64,000 nt of DNA, taken from NCBI GenBank assembly GCA_037833965.1, contig AP031351.1:12412501-12476500 (forward strand), written 5' to 3'. Each line of letters begins with the position of its first letter. The first letter of the stretch is position 1. This DNA comes from Marchantia polymorpha subsp. ruderalis. Lineage: Eukaryota; Streptophyta; Marchantiopsida; Marchantiales; Marchantiaceae. Below, in pieces: positions 2,773 through 61,133 of the stretch. The notes under the pieces are model-generated. The model saw only the letters and a program-made list of their open reading frames with translations, did not search any database and was not told the DNA's origin. The translations under genes and the position numbers were made by a program.

Positions 2773-5700
2773 ATGGCATCCAAGATGTCAAGGAGGAGTT
2801 TCTCCTTCGAGCTTCTGGCGAACAACAGTCCTGGAGATGGAGATTCTGCGAATCTATATGGCAGTGATTTCATGGGTGACGAAAAGAGTGATAAACCTCG
2901 CCGCCGGCGCCGGAAGAATAGAAGCAGAAAAACCAGCGTTGGTGATTTGAGTCCCATATCACCAATTCCAGATGAATCAGGGAGTCATTTGAGCACTTTG
3001 AACAGCAGCCTATTGCCTCCCCTACCATACTCCGTTGATTCTTTTGCGTATCCCTCAGACTGGCCGCTGGGAATTTCTCCGACTGAATCATCCCCGTCTG
3101 TTTCTGCCGAGTCCCCTAGTGTTCCTCTTCTGATCACCTCGCGGTCATTGGAGCGCGAGCCATCCAGCTTGGGAGTTGTCAGAGGTTAGAATTGTGACCA
3201 ACACTCCTTTCTTTGTTCCTTCTTTGTTTTCTCGAAGTTGTTTGTGTGGCTGCTTAAATAGTTCATCTCTTCTGAGTTCTTGAAACATTTCACCTGCAGA
3301 ATACAGATCTGGTTCTTCTGCTGGATGGGACCACCGGGATTCCAATCAATTGGACTCTTTAAAACTCTTCGCCTCAACAGGATCAGAATTATCATGTCAC
3401 GCTGCTAAAGACGATTCTAGGTTAAGGGAGACTCTGGAAGAGACTTTAGGCAACATCAAGGAGGGAAGTGTGACAGATTCAGTAGTATACACAGTCGATA
3501 AGGTAGCTCGCGTTCAAGGGGCGTCAGAGAGGTCTCTTCTTAAAAGTCCGAGCTTTAGGGAAAACTTATCGTCAGGAGTACCAGATTTTTCTGCAGCCAA
3601 TGGCGGCATAGTAGAGCCGAGTTTTGCTCCTGGTGCATTATTCCCACCAACAGAATTGAGGCAGCGACTTGTAGAGAGAAGCGTCTCTAAGCACAATGAT
3701 GATAATTGTGTAGAAGACATGCCGACAGTTGTGAATTCCAAGCAGCGTTCACTAATAGATTCTAACCTCGGTACATCTAGTGATGAGCATGCCACCCCCC
3801 CTCCACAGAAAATTCGACTCGGAACTTTCGCCACTCCACAGTTGAAAGATTGGGAGCGTCTAATGGCTGCCAACAATCGTGAGCTCCTCTATCTTAGCAA
3901 GCAAGAACAATTGAATCATTCATGGGTTTCAGTTTACAGCTTTTGATAGGTAACGGTGAAATTATCGGAAAGTCTTCTCTGCTTTATGGGGGGTGGGGGT
4001 CTTGCTGTCTAGTATGTCTTTCAACATCTTTAATTGATACTCTAAATACATGACAAAGTTTTTTCCTGGATATTGAATACTACTAGATCCTCCACCTGTG
4101 GAATTATCTCCGCTGCAGTATATCCGCGGAGAAGTCTTCGGTGGGAGCACTTTGAGAAACACAAATGCTGCTGGTAGCGACCAGAGGAGAGAGCAGGTTT
4201 ACAACACGATGTTTCACGTGCCTTGGCGATGTGAACTGGTAAGAATTGAATGAAGTCTTAGGATAAGTGCCACTGATACTGGTAAAGGAACTTGTCACAG
4301 TCCTCTCATGGAGCCAATGTTTTTTTGTGAGTCTCCCCTTTGCATCTCGAGGGTGAAGAAGCTAAGATGTTGAAACTTTCTAATTCCGTTATGCACATTA
4401 TGCAGCTTATAGACGTTGGATTCTTCGTTTGCTTGGATGCTTTCCTCTCGCTGTTCACCGTGATACCGGCAAGGATCATCATGTACTTTTGGCACCATAT
4501 ACGAAATTTATTCAAGCGCAGGTGAGACCTATTTGTTGTCATTCTGTACATTGACCTTTCTCCTGGTTGCTCAAAATGCACCAACCAGTCAGTCCCAATC
4601 TGCCACACATTAGCCATTTATGTTTTGCTATTCTTAACTTGAAATCATAGTTTTCAAATTTGTATCAGAATCGTTTTCAAGGTGAGACAAAGCAGATGTA
4701 CACTAGTATTCTTGTTTGTATTCTACCATCCTAGCGAGAAGAACTCTCCTCCATAATTAAATCCCATAGAGTTCAAAATCTTTTAGTCTCTGAAAATCTT
4801 AATGAGATCGATGCCAAATAGTCTCAACCAGGTGAGGTACTTATCGAAAGCACAGTTGGAAAATGGGAGTGCTCTAATTCTTTGTCTACCTCTTATTTGA
4901 TCGTGTCAAGACGTTTCTTGTTGTAACCTGAGGTGTTTCTGGGCAGGCAGTTTCAAAGACCGGTGGCAGCAGAGCTTTGCGATTTCGGATGTTTGATTGT
5001 GCTTGTGGTTGGAGTAGCAGTTCTCAGGCAAGCAGGTGGGTGACTCTCGTGAAGTGCTACATCTTCTTGCATTTGTATAGAAACCTGGATTTGTGCGCAA
5101 CATGCATATCTTTTTGTCTTGAACATCTTCTCATGTGAACGCGATGCTGCAGATATAAGTATCATCTACCACTGGATTCGATGCCAAGGCATTGTCAAGC
5201 TTTATGTCATTTTCAATGTTCTGGAGGTAGGTAAGCCTTAATAAAAAGAATCGCCACATGTAGCTATACCAGGACCCGAAATTGAGATTTTTGTTGAACA
5301 TGAGGAGCTCTGAATTTTATTGTCTCTAACGTCGGAACAATATATTTCGCTGGCAGCCAAACAAACAGGTATTTTAGTTAGAAGCTTAGAGATGAGGACA
5401 TACTGTGGGACTTTTCTCGAATAGCCTTCTGCTGATAATACAAGTTCAATCGTGCTTGTGCAGATTTTTGACAAACTTTGTCAATCTTTCGGAGCAGATG
5501 TACTGCAGGTCCTGTTCAACTCTGCGATGTCTGTTGAGAGTTGCCGTGATGAGAATCTGTCAGTTGAGATTGCACGCTTCGCTCTGGATCAATGCATAGC
5601 TATCTTCACTTACCATATCCTTCATCGATGTGCTTGATTTATTGTTTGACAATAGACGTTACGGCAGTGCAGAACTCTAGTTTGCCAGATCTTGTAACAG

Positions 5701-7167
5701 TGCAACGCATTCAACGGGATGGGAATGGATACAGGAAGCTCATTTTATTGCATCTTTTTCTGAATTTATCCTTGACAATCTACACTGATACATGCACTTA
5801 TTATCATATCACAAGCTGTTACATTGTCTGCTGCGGTCAACGCTCAAAACAATGCACTTCTTACGCTTTTAATATCCAACAACTTTGCGGAGATCAAAAG
5901 CAATGTCTTCAAGCGCATGGGCACGGACCAGTTGCATAAAATGGCCTATCACGGTAGGTAGTTTAAGTCATTTCATTATCGAATTGCAGTTCTTGTTTCC
6001 ACTGTTGGAGGAATCAAACAGTTTTATTTCTAGTCTGATGTTCTGAAGTTGTGGAATTTGATGTGAAACAGATACAGTGGAGCGATTTCACATCCTGACA
6101 CATGTTTTGTTTGTGTGGGCACAAAATGTGGAAAATGCTGAAGAATCATTGTGGCTCAAATTTTTCTATGTAAGTGTGGCCATCGTTTTGATTCTTTTGT
6201 AGGATCAAGATTGCGCTTGTAGGAACGTCGTGCGTGACCACAAATCCAAGCATTATGGAGAATACACTTGACTTCCAAATTATTTGGGAATTATTTTCTG
6301 TCCATTTTTGTTGTAACTCGTGATGTCTCAGTACTTCGGTTATTCTCCATCCAAGCTTGTAGTTGTTATTCGTTGGTTTCTTGACGAATTCTCCACTCTC
6401 CCCTCAGTTTAATGGAAGGCTGTTTTGATCTGCAGAATGCAGGCATGGTGTTCTTTTGTGAAATGATAGTGGATGTCATCAAGCACTCATTTCTTGCAAA
6501 GTTCAATGAAGTGAAACCGGCCACTTACTCTCAGTTTCTGCAGGCGCTCTGCACGCAGGTAATAAATAATCATAACTAGTACAGACAAAGAGTTTGTTTG
6601 AAGCTTCGAAGCAAATTTTCTCCTAATACACTTTCGATTAACTTGCACTTGAACGGAAATCCTGATGTGCAGACTTTGAGCAGTCAGTCTCATGAAGTTC
6701 ACAAGACTATGGCCTTCGTTCCTCTTGCACCTGCGTGCGTGGTATGTAAGTCCACGTTCGTAGATGAAATGTTCATTACCGAACGTATTTATTCTTGTGT
6801 TTTTGTTGATGATCGACTTTTCAGTTTTGAATGTCAATCTTATCATTGTTGTAAGTTAGAACTCTTGACAGAATTATGTCGAGGAGTTTTTAATAATTTT
6901 ATAAAGTTTTGTAAGCAAGTTCCAATGTTGAGGTTTAAAAACTTAACGTACGTTGTGTAGGTGATGAGAATCCTGTTTCCTGTGTATGCGTCATGCATCC
7001 CCGAAGGACCCTTTTGGTGGAAATGGCCCGTTATGATGCTTTTAGGCGGCGGTACATATGCTGCTCTGTTCCTCTTGAAAATCGTCATTGGTTTGAGTTT
7101 ACAAATACACGCTAGATGGTATTTGAAACGCCATCCTTGGAAAGCATCTCATCCACATCATGAATGA
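2773..7167 (+). CDS. TAPT1: TAPT1/POD1-like multipass membrane protein (12 exons)
   Basis: Homologue of animal TAPT1 and Arabidopsis POLLEN DEFECTIVE IN GUIDANCE 1 (POD1), an ER or secretory membrane protein. Proposed coding exons: 2773-3184, 3300-3878, 4087-4238, 4406-4521, 4947-5035, 5153-5226, 5464-5614, 5786-5953, 6072-6169, 6436-6558, 6673-6741, 6961-7167. They total 2238 bases (745 aa) and all phases agree. The N-terminal third is hydrophilic, with a basic RRRRRKNR stretch and low complexity. The conserved core begins near SPLQYIRGEVFGG and holds family blocks such as NTMFHVPWRCELLIDVGFF, FDKLCQSFGADV, NNFAEIKSNVFKR and FVPLAPACVV. There are several hydrophobic spans, the last being LGGGTYAALFLLKIVIGL. 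The ATG at 2773 is preferred because an upstream in-frame ATG (2722) lies before the acceptor. The end of exon 2 (donor at 3879) is the least certain boundary. All introns are GT-AG except the AT-AC intron after exon 7. Confidence 0.9.
5615..5785 (+). other. U12-type AT-AC intron in the TAPT1-like gene
   Basis: The intron begins ATATCCTTC, matching the minor-spliceosome 5' splice consensus (ATATCCTTT) in eight of nine positions. Near its end is ATCCTTGAC (5768-5776), which closely matches the U12 branch-site consensus TTCCTTRAC. The branch A would be at 5775, 10 bases before the terminal AC (5784-5785). No AG lies where the reading frame needs an acceptor, and an in-frame TGA (5773-5775) rules out a longer downstream exon. 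Splicing AT to AC joins TTC ACT TAC C to TG ATA CAT GCA, giving FTYLIHALIIISQAVTL. This aligns without a gap to the POD1 segment ending in FILLAQAITL. AC dinucleotides at 5782-5783 and 5790-5791 are alternatives. Confidence 0.85.
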
Positions 7168-12726: not shown

Positions 12727-24311
<11,585 letters not shown>

Positions 24312-57916: not shown

Positions 57917-58676
57917 TCTTATAAATCAGGGTTCAAATTCCCTCCTCCTCACCACGAGAATTGCGCTCTCCGGCTCCCTGCCTTCTATTCAGGGGACGTA
58001 CTCAGGAACACTTCTCACACACACCCTCGCACACACCCTCCCCGCACCAGCCTGCACGCAAGCACCGTACTCTCCGGGACCGAGCACACGCACAAAGTGC
58101 AGAAACAGCAGTCCGCCGCAGCAGCAGCAGCTGCAACATCAGCACCAGCTCCCACTACTTAGCATTCGTCATCCGCTTCGTTGCACCTCTACATCTTCTC
58201 GGGATCCCGTCCCCATCCCTCCCCTTCCCATTCCTCCCCCCGGGCGTGTGCTCCATAACAGTCGCCTCATGCCCTTTCGGCGCTCCCTTTGCTTCCCATT
58301 TCTCCGGATCTCTTAGCTTGATGCGCCTTCCTGCTGCTCTAGAAGCGTTCGTTCGCGTAGCATCGGTCAGATTGCTACTGTCGGGAACTCACCTCGGCTT
58401 GCATCGAGCTCTAGCAGCTCATTCCGTGGTTGTGGTGGTGGTGGTGTTTTCGTTCTTCTTCCTCTTCTTCTTCGTACAGTCCATGTCCGCGCGCAGCATC
58501 CGTCGCACCTAGAGCGAGGGTCGAGCACCGTTCTGCACATACCGGGCATTCGCATCTACAGTCTGATTTCTCGCAGCGATTCCGAAGTTTGAGATTGTTG
58601 CGCCGGGAATTTCCTGTCTGCCTCTCTTGTTGTGATTATCTACCTCGCCTCACGGGTTATTAGCCGCGCACGACCG
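57917..58676 (+). promoter_or_regulatory. Putative promoter and 5' leader of the dioxygenase gene
   Basis: CTTATAAATCAGGG near 57917-57930 is a reasonable TATA box, about 750 bases before the start codon. The following sequence is C-rich and pyrimidine-rich with CAG and CTT repeats, as in plant 5' leaders. Distance and context fit a promoter with a long leader or a leader intron, but the start site is not proven. Confidence 0.35.
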
Positions 58677-61133
58677 ATGGCCGCAATGACTATGACTCGT
58701 CCGAACGACCCTTTTACGTCAGACATCGCTAGATTCCACGAGGTGAAAGGGGCGAAGGATGAACCATTCGCAGAACTTACTCGATACCACGAAGTCAGGG
58801 GAGTACGGGAGATGGTGGAGAGCTTTCGAGTCAGGGAAGTTCCCTCGTATTACGTGAAGCCTGTGAACGAGCGGCGATTCACACCGCCGTCCGCAGCAGT
58901 TCTGAGTATGGAGCAGCAAATTCCGTGCATTGATCTCGAAGCCCTGTCCGGTCAGGAGTTACTCTCGGCAATTGCCAACGCCTGTAGGGACTGGGGATTT
59001 TTCCAGGTTCTGAACCATGGTCTCCCTAGTCAACTCGTCCAGAACATGGCCAAGCAATCGAGCGAGTTTTTTGCGCAGCCTTTAGAAGAAAAGATGAAAT
59101 GTAGCACGCCTGCGAGGGTATCAGGTCCGGTGCATTTTGGCGGGGGAGGCAACAGGGATTGGCGAGATGTCTTGAAGCTCAATTGTGCCCCGGCATCGAT
59201 CGTTGCTAAAGAGTATTGGCCCCAAAGACCAGCTGGTTTCAGGTAAGGCTTCCAGAGTTCCGACCTGCAAGTCAATCAGTTCACGAGATATGTCGTCTTT
59301 CCAATCCTCGCAAACGAACTTGGATGCTTGAGCTTCACGCCCCTCGGTCCTAGATTCTTTAATTTTCAATGCCCGCTGTACGCCACTCTTCCTTTCTATC
59401 AATCCCGGATTCCAAAGGGCCGGTTAGACTGCCTCTTTATCTTCAACACACTCGCCGCAATGACTGAGTGTGAAATTCATCACAGCATGAGCTTCGGAGT
59501 GAAGCCCACTCTGCTCGTTAGCAAGCGGAAAGTCACTGCCTCCGCTGCCAGGAGGAGGCAGTGACTTTCTTCAATCAGCACGGTCAGGCTGCCTGCATTT
59601 TGCAGGCAGCCTGATTGTGTTTCGTCGAAGGCTGACGTCCAGTTTGCAGGCCACTCATCACAAATTTGCTTTCCCGTATATTCTGCCGTCATTCATTCGG
59701 GAGAAGATATGTCAGCTTGCCAGGGTACTAGACCATGCTCAGAGTGGAGGGTGTGAGCGAGTTCTGACTGAGAAAGTGGGCGGAGAGTCTGTTCACATAT
59801 CTTTTATAATAAGGCAGAATTTCAGGAATTAGAGTATGCTCGCGAGTCGATTTCAAGGATATCTTATATTTGATCATCGAACTCGCAATTGATCTCTTCC
59901 CCGCACGTGTTTGGTTGTGCATTGCAGGGATACGATGGAAGAGTATTCCAGCCAGCAACAGGCACTGGCCATCAGGCTCTTGAAGTTGATAAGCGAATCT
60001 CTTGGCCTGGAATCGAACTATTTGGTCGCAGCCTGCGGGGAACCCAAGGTCGTGATGGCAATCAACCACTATCCTCCTTGCCCGGACCCGAGCTTAACCA
60101 TGGGAATTAAGGCGCACTCTGACCCCAACACAATAACCATGCTTCTGCAAGACGATGTTGGCGGCTTACAAGTTTTCAAGGAGGACAGATGGATCGATGT
60201 GAGACCTTTACCGAACGCTCTTGTCATCAACGTGGGGGACCAGCTACAGGTTTGTTTTATATTCGTCGACGACACTCTGAATTTTTCCTGTTTGTGAAAT
60301 GCTCACTTCGTCATCTGTTTCCGACTGAAGATTTTGCACACAGTCGGCACGATCAATCAGAATGCTTGCTATTATAGGATCAGATCATATCGGGCCAGGG
60401 CAGGGAAGGGAAGAACTAGTGCTGTACGGGCAGTGAGAATGGATGGTGGCATGATGAGTGTAGGAAGGCGCAGTGAGCTGATTAGGTGCACGAGCTCTGA
60501 GCTCGTGCGGTTTTAGCAAAGAAATGCATGCGGGTTCAGTGTCGTGTGGAGAAGATTCGGGCCATTACTGGGGGGAACAGGGGGTCTTCCAGCAGTAGAC
60601 AAGCGACCAGCAGAGCAGAGCTGGGTAGAGTCGAGCAGTGGTCGGCCGTTAGGAGTAGTAATAGTAGTAGTAGTAGGGCTTGCACGCGAGATGCGATGGG
60701 ATGCAAATGCGATGGGGATAGAGTAGAGGTTTGTTGATCGTTTGTCGAGTAGTCGAGAAGAGGCCGGGTCCAAGTTGGACTCGAGAAGAGGCTCATTGGA
60801 CTGATGTGCTTATTGTACGTGGTGCGTGTTCAGATTCTGAGCAACGGAAAGTACAGCAGCTGTTTACACCGAGTAGTTAACAACAATCGGCAAGCACGGA
60901 CATCCATCGCCACGTTCTTCTCGCCAGCGCATGCGTGCATCATCGGCCCAGCTCCGGGTTTGGTGGATGAGGTGAACCCCGCCATCTATCCGAACATCGT
61001 GTACGCAGATTACATCAAGGCTTTCTATACGCAAGCACTGGGACCCAACAACAAAAATGGTGGCTACCTGGCTGGCATCGAGCTTCACAGAAGATACAAC
61101 TGCTACACCTCCTCCTCCTCCATCTCCAGCTAG
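58677..61133 (+). CDS. 2-oxoglutarate/Fe(II)-dependent dioxygenase, DOXC class (3 exons)
   Basis: A soluble plant dioxygenase that couples oxidation of a small molecule to decarboxylation of 2-oxoglutarate. Exons 58677-59242, 59928-60249 and 60834-61133 join in phase (1188 bases, 395 aa). The DIOX_N domain (about 80-185) has IPCIDLEAL and CRDWGFFQVLNHGLP. The catalytic fold has NHYPPCPDP, then the iron ligands His252 and Asp254 (AHSDPNTITMLLQDDVGGLQV), NVGDQLQ and His308 (CLHRVVNN). The 2-oxoglutarate site is RTSIATFFSP (about 318-327). The nearest relatives by pattern are the DMR6/DLO salicylate hydroxylase, flavone synthase I and related flavonoid enzymes; the substrate cannot be read from sequence. 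The tail after FYTQALG is unusual, ending in a short Ser-rich stretch. The ATG at 58677 is the first in frame. Both introns are GT-AG. Confidence 0.9.
59528..59614 (+). repeat. Two adjacent perfect hairpins in intron 1 of the dioxygenase gene
   Basis: Hairpin A: GAAAGTCACTGCCTCC (59528-59543), a 10-base loop, GGAGGCAGTGACTTTC (59554-59569); 16 perfect pairs. Hairpin B, 14 bases later: TCAGGCTGCCTGCA (59584-59597), loop TTT, TGCAGGCAGCCTGA (59601-59614); 14 perfect pairs. AATCA at 59572-59576 could also pair with TGATT after hairpin B, giving an alternative fold. Confidence 0.9.
60488..60508 (+). repeat. Perfect 10-bp inverted repeat in intron 2 of the dioxygenase gene
   Basis: GCACGAGCTC, a single central T, and GAGCTCGTGC form a perfect palindrome followed by GGTTTTAGC. 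Confidence 0.85.

Follow-up and report, generated by a model that had tools for sequence, protein, structure and literature searches.

The seventh intron of a plant TAPT1/POD1 gene, at 5615-5785, is very probably a genuine U12-type AT-AC intron, of the kind removed by the minor spliceosome. The gene lies in a 64,000-nucleotide stretch of the liverwort Marchantia polymorpha subsp. ruderalis (contig AP031351.1, positions 12,412,501 to 12,476,500), called here the window, whose numbering is used throughout. The original prediction, made from the letters of this DNA, had proposed the U12-type AT-AC interpretation. It is supported by the top score against the protein family, by the U12-type 5' splice-site and branch motifs, by the restored frame, by U11 and U12 genes complementary to these motifs, and by the single place that the family occupies in the genome; from these features we infer splicing in the cell.

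The probable AT-AC intron of TAPT1/POD1

2773..7167, plus strand: TAPT1/POD1 gene, from the likely ATG at 2773 to a TGA stop, with 12 exons and 11 introns in the model
5464..5614, plus strand: exon 7, adjoining the AT-AC intron upstream and ending in phase 1
5615..5785, plus strand: probable AT-AC U12-type intron 7, 171 nucleotides (motifs, frame, family score)
5615..5623, plus strand: U12-type 5' splice site ATATCCTTC, matching RTATCCTTY
5768..5776, plus strand: U12-type branch-site motif ATCCTTGAC, branch A at 5775, predicted to pair with the plant's own U12
5784..5785, plus strand: 3' terminal AC, 10 nucleotides past the branch A
5786..5953, plus strand: exon 8, which first completes the codon C/TG and encodes LIHALIIISQAVTLSAAVNAQ...

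The proposed identity of the gene holds, since joined exons 3-12 match the TAPT1/POD1 family PF05346 ("Eukaryotic membrane protein family") over nearly the whole profile (positions 4-314 of 315) with 293.7 bits, over the gathering score. In the 241-Mb genome this family matched one place, the present gene, by three exon-wise matches, and the genome-wide search found no paralog. No relatives of the protein were found in the PDB at E up to 1. The ten introns of the gene with both ends displayed comprise nine GT-AG introns and the AT-AC one.

The letters originally given for the 5' end, the branch motif and the AC 10 nucleotides after the branch A are all in place, and the TGA reported at 5773-5775 is present, in frame with the downstream exon. 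The branch motif differs from TTCCTTRAC at one position, the first base, and the sequence between branch and 3' end, CAATCTACAC, has by eye no pyrimidine tract. The strict combination of donor, branch and AC occurs once in the window when both strands are scanned. By chance, at least one such trio appeared in 58 of 400 first-order Markov sequences (64 kb, one strand; 64 donors in total). This is a rate of about 2.5e-6 per base, or about 2e-4 over the approximately 76 possible donor bases (5555-5630), before a restored frame and a family match are demanded. The motif trio alone is therefore weak evidence at the scale of the window, and it is its coincidence with the gap between exons that carries weight.

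The Rfam search at gathering scores returned no match inside the window. In the same genome, one U12, one U11 and 13 U6atac matches were over the cut-off. The plant's own U11 (L011) begins UAAAAGGGUC and can pair without interruption with positions 3-8 of the TAPT1 intron, forming six pairs, one of them G-U. The GUAAGGA region of its U12 (L002) is predicted to form duplexes with two branch motifs, that of TAPT1 (−6.2 kcal/mol) and that of CBP20 (−7.6 kcal/mol), a second gene treated below. By predicted base pairing, both RNAs are complementary to the TAPT1 intron sites. In the proposed mechanism, U11 would pair with ATATCCTTC and U12 with TCCTTGAC, leaving the branch A bulged. Once the intron is removed, the C that ends exon 7 in phase 1 would meet the TG... 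of exon 8, giving an unbroken hydrophobic stretch, ...IAIFTYLIHALIIISQAV...

Competing junctions and alternative readings

Junctions were enumerated for GT-AG, GC-AG, AT-AC, AT-AG and GT-AC pairs with donors at 5540-5699 and acceptors up to 5859, keeping the frame without a stop. This gave 73 junctions (42 AT-AC, 20 GT-AC, 5 AT-AG, 3 GT-AG and 3 GC-AG). Scoring against PF05346 covered 12 full-length proteins, corresponding to 13 of the 73 junctions, and the retained form; the remaining GT-AG pair, all three GC-AG pairs and 56 further junctions lay outside this set. Among the 12 proteins, the AT-AC junction 5615-5785 had the top score (293.7 bits), followed by 5624-5791, which lacks a U12 donor (291.5). 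The others were 5588-5785 (289.5), 5615-5776 (287.7), 5628-5783 (287.6, protein identical to that of 5630-5785), 5615-5791 (287.5), 5624-5785 (287.2), 5592-5783 (284.7), 5630-5791 (284.6), 5615-5797 (281.4) and the GT-AG pairs 5630-5815 (276.8) and 5546-5815 (261.0). The claim that AT-AC splicing restores an ungapped POD1 match is overstated as to gaps; what the scoring shows is the best family fit among the 12 proteins. The retained form, ended at its first stop, scored 91.6 bits. Retention does truncate the protein, as had been predicted, through a stop at 5635-5637, upstream of the TGA that had been named.

Several observations weigh against a U12-type intron at 5615-5785. Its lead over the runner-up 5624-5791 is only 2.2 bits, and because of this the score alone cannot fix the junction, which is fixed by the PF05346 score and the U12 motifs together. 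U4atac gave no match in the genome, and the control genomes were silent too. Genome-wide, ATATCCTTY...TTCCTTRAC...AC was found twice, versus once for the reversed-pattern control, and GTATC...TTCCTTRAC...AG 32 times versus 26, one place counted twice, which is no clear excess of U12-like introns in the length ranges searched. These counts were made without a calibration genome and so are no measure of minor-intron scarcity, and TAPT1's own branch motif lies outside the patterns. The plant's U6atac, described in the next section, keeps in canonical register three of the five consensus pairs with the TAPT1 5' splice site, and these are scattered. Of the genome-wide pattern matches, three carry the full consensus donor (L026, L027 and L088); they have no convincing open coding flanks, judged by open frames only.

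The scored rivals that share the U12 donor end 1 (5615-5776), 16 (5615-5791) and 22 (5615-5797) bases past the branch A. The nearest U12-like rival is 5615-5791, in which the same donor would be joined to the next AC, at 5790-5791. It keeps the frame, a further point against the end at 5785, but it costs two residues and 6.2 bits (287.5 versus 293.7), and the AC at 10 nucleotides from the branch A is within the usual range for U12-type introns. We regard this end as highly improbable. Use of a U2-type GT-AG intron at 5630-5815 (GAT/GTGCTTGAT ... CACAAG), alone or beside the AT-AC one as a twintron, is marginally less so. It had been stated that no AG is available and that no GT-AG solution keeps the protein. 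The first part is incorrect: the first AG after 5776 is at 5814-5815, and six pairs that end at this AG, three GT-AG and three GC-AG, preserve the frame, with 70-100 residues in this part of the protein versus 105 for AT-AC splicing, 5 to 35 fewer. The second part fails on the frame, which 5630-5815 keeps, another point against AT-AC splicing, and stands as to quality: the donor at 5630 is poor, with no G at +5, and the product is 5 residues shorter, has HILHRS in place of LIHALIIISQA and scores 16.9 bits lower. In its favor, human TAPT1 appears as a twintron, with a 338-amino-acid U2 variant beside a 567-amino-acid U12 one (PMC3564746).

Removal of an intron with AT-AC ends by the major spliceosome would agree with the lack of a canonical 5' splice-site helix in the plant's own U6atac, and major-class AT-AC introns exist (PMC8280824); we give this reading the same slight weight as the GT-AG one. 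A pseudogene or an assembly error, with the exon truly broken, is the least probable of all: no point supporting it was found, exons 3-12, when joined, form an open frame scoring 293.7 bits, no second copy was found, and the contig is 31.6 Mb long. U12-type splicing at 5615-5785 thus remains by far the preferred reading.

CBP20 and the altered box of U6atac

A CBP20 query of approximate sequence matched C2:21248354-21249162 at 79 and 82% identity. At this locus (L094), a 34-nucleotide exon 4 is followed by ATATCCATC...TTCCTTAACAGCTCGCTAC, and the coding sequence appears to resume with GRGGYGKLVQKELESRRQLVDY.

L094:566-878 (our own reading): putative CBP20 AT-AC intron, donor ATATCCATC, branch TTCCTTAAC, after the 34-nucleotide exon 4

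Its donor is one base off the consensus. A U12 AT-AC intron is described in CBP20 of all ten land plants compared, one liverwort among them (PMC5932401). With the intron at the land-plant position here, AT-AC introns appear to persist in two conserved genes, TAPT1 and CBP20.

The altered box described here belongs to the splicing machinery rather than to the intron. Twelve of the 13 Rfam U6atac matches (L003-L010 and L020-L023) read GAGCCGAGAGA where the consensus has GAAAGGAGAGA, their 5'-splice-site box being GAGCCGAG in place of GAAAGGAG; L020 and L021 have identical flanks. The thirteenth, L091, is decayed and low-scoring (37.6 bits) and reads UUGAACCAAGG, with C at positions 13 and 14 too; its box, GAACCAAG, also departs from the consensus, which is missing in 13 of 13 Rfam matches. 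Two more BLAST matches (L024 and L025) stop short of the box. Searching for AAAGGAGAGAAGGTTAGC with one mismatch allowed returned two places versus one in the control, neither of them U6atac by Rfam, with the best candidates scored.

L003:1501-1625 (G000:C5:12818140-12818264), minus strand: U6atac with promoter elements, box GAGCCGAG versus GAAAGGAG

Only L003 among the 12 copies has CCATAAG near −63, TATA near −29 and an end in a T-run. Since other small nuclear RNA (snRNA) genes of this plant show such elements, L003 appears to be the source gene, and the 11 other box-sharing copies resemble promoterless retrocopies. Among U6 loci, for which 30 of 48 matches were fetched, CATAAG lies at −53 to −58 in seven (by script) and TATATA at −27/−28 in 13. 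By eye, several other U6 loci have a CCATAC-like element, and the U11 and U12 genes carry CCATAA upstream. The upstream regions of U6, U11, U12 and U6atac thus share a CCATAAG/CATAAG-like element, unlike RTCCCACATCG, the upstream element of angiosperm snRNA genes.

The Rfam U6atac consensus begins GUGUUGUaUGAAAGGAGAGAAGGUUAGC and L003 begins GUGUUCGUUGAGCCGAGAGAAGGUUAGC, positions 12-14 changing from AAG to GCC. The pairs that L003 keeps with the TAPT1 5' splice site are 4U-16A, 5C-15G and the wobble 8U-12G; 6C-14C and 7U-13C are unpairable. Where human U6atac has G14, facing intron C6 in the canonical register, this plant's copy has a C. The best TAPT1 duplex with U6atac positions 9-18 has −5.1 kcal/mol for the consensus sequence, weakening to −0.9 kcal/mol for the plant's own. 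Arguing against such a loss of pairing, TAPT1 can reach −4.9 kcal/mol, near the canonical value, in a shifted register on the second AAGG (about 19-23). CBP20 reaches −0.8 kcal/mol at best with the whole 23-nucleotide U6atac 5' end. The GTATC pattern matches mentioned above have CTT at +6 to +8 in 1 of 32 and GGC in none, and so show no sign of donors shifted toward the new box.

In the human system, U6atac GG14/15CC is a suppressor of the 5' splice site mutation CC5/6GG. Suppressor experiments of this kind, described in PMC4980772, underlie the accepted view that minor splicing requires U6atac to base-pair with the 5' splice site. With the box lacking from the only promoter-bearing U6atac copy, beside AT-AC introns in two conserved genes, either the genome hides a second U6atac or the helix may be dispensable. 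A canonical copy may still exist that was missed, withheld or left unassembled. We consider the chances evenly divided as to whether this plant splices its TAPT1 and CBP20 AT-AC introns with a U6atac in which the box GAAAGGAG has become GAGCCGAG. In that event U11 and proteins would define the 5' splice site, and U6atac would take over without forming the canonical helix. If L003 is the working gene, AT-AC introns would be spliced without that helix, and its altered transcript would start GUGUUCGUUGAGCCGAG, without AAAGGAG. U6atac is the part that deserves follow-up; the intron finding is correct and of an ordinary kind.

Other features and relation to known systems

3897..4086, plus strand: intron 2 of TAPT1/POD1, probably GC-AG (TTA/GCAAGC ... 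TAG)

Other frame-keeping pairs exist for intron 2, and this one is probably the likeliest among those listed; in the same region, a tempting GTAACG donor at 3950 comes after in-frame stops. About 7 kb downstream of TAPT1 begins the first matched exon of a multi-exon gene for Prp8, a core protein of both spliceosomes (14278-24127, plus strand; PRO8NT, PROCN, RRM_4, U6-snRNA-binding, domain IV, JAB and PROCT matches). An open frame at 58593-59246 (plus strand) belongs to a 2-oxoglutarate-dependent dioxygenase-like gene (DIOX_N).

The TAPT1 intron has the same ATATCCTTY donor, TCCTTRAC branch and AC 10 nucleotides after the branch A as known U12-type AT-AC introns, and likewise sits among U2-type introns. 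The intron itself is no different from these; the genome differs in the altered 5' splice-site box of its U6atac. A U12 intron is also on record for human TAPT1 (PMC3564746). The likeness shown is one of gene family, and in contrast to the human twintron, the only competing U2-type choice here is the poor GT-AG pair 5630-5815. The AT-AC U12 intron 4 of plant CBP20 (PMC5932401) is of the same class and is present in the same genome too, in a different gene. The TAPT1 intron is therefore a new case of a known class, and its gene family already counts a human member with a recorded U12 intron. A search of the open-licence literature by title and abstract found no report of a liverwort TAPT1 U12 intron or of an altered U6atac box. 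Gene predictors limited to GT-AG would break TAPT1 at this intron, and its annotation is warranted. Minor splicing also departs from the norm in Physarum, whose transformed minor spliceosome was reported by Larue in 2021. In that lineage both the introns and the snRNAs have reportedly shifted; in the present plant the TAPT1 motif is canonical and it is U6atac that departs.
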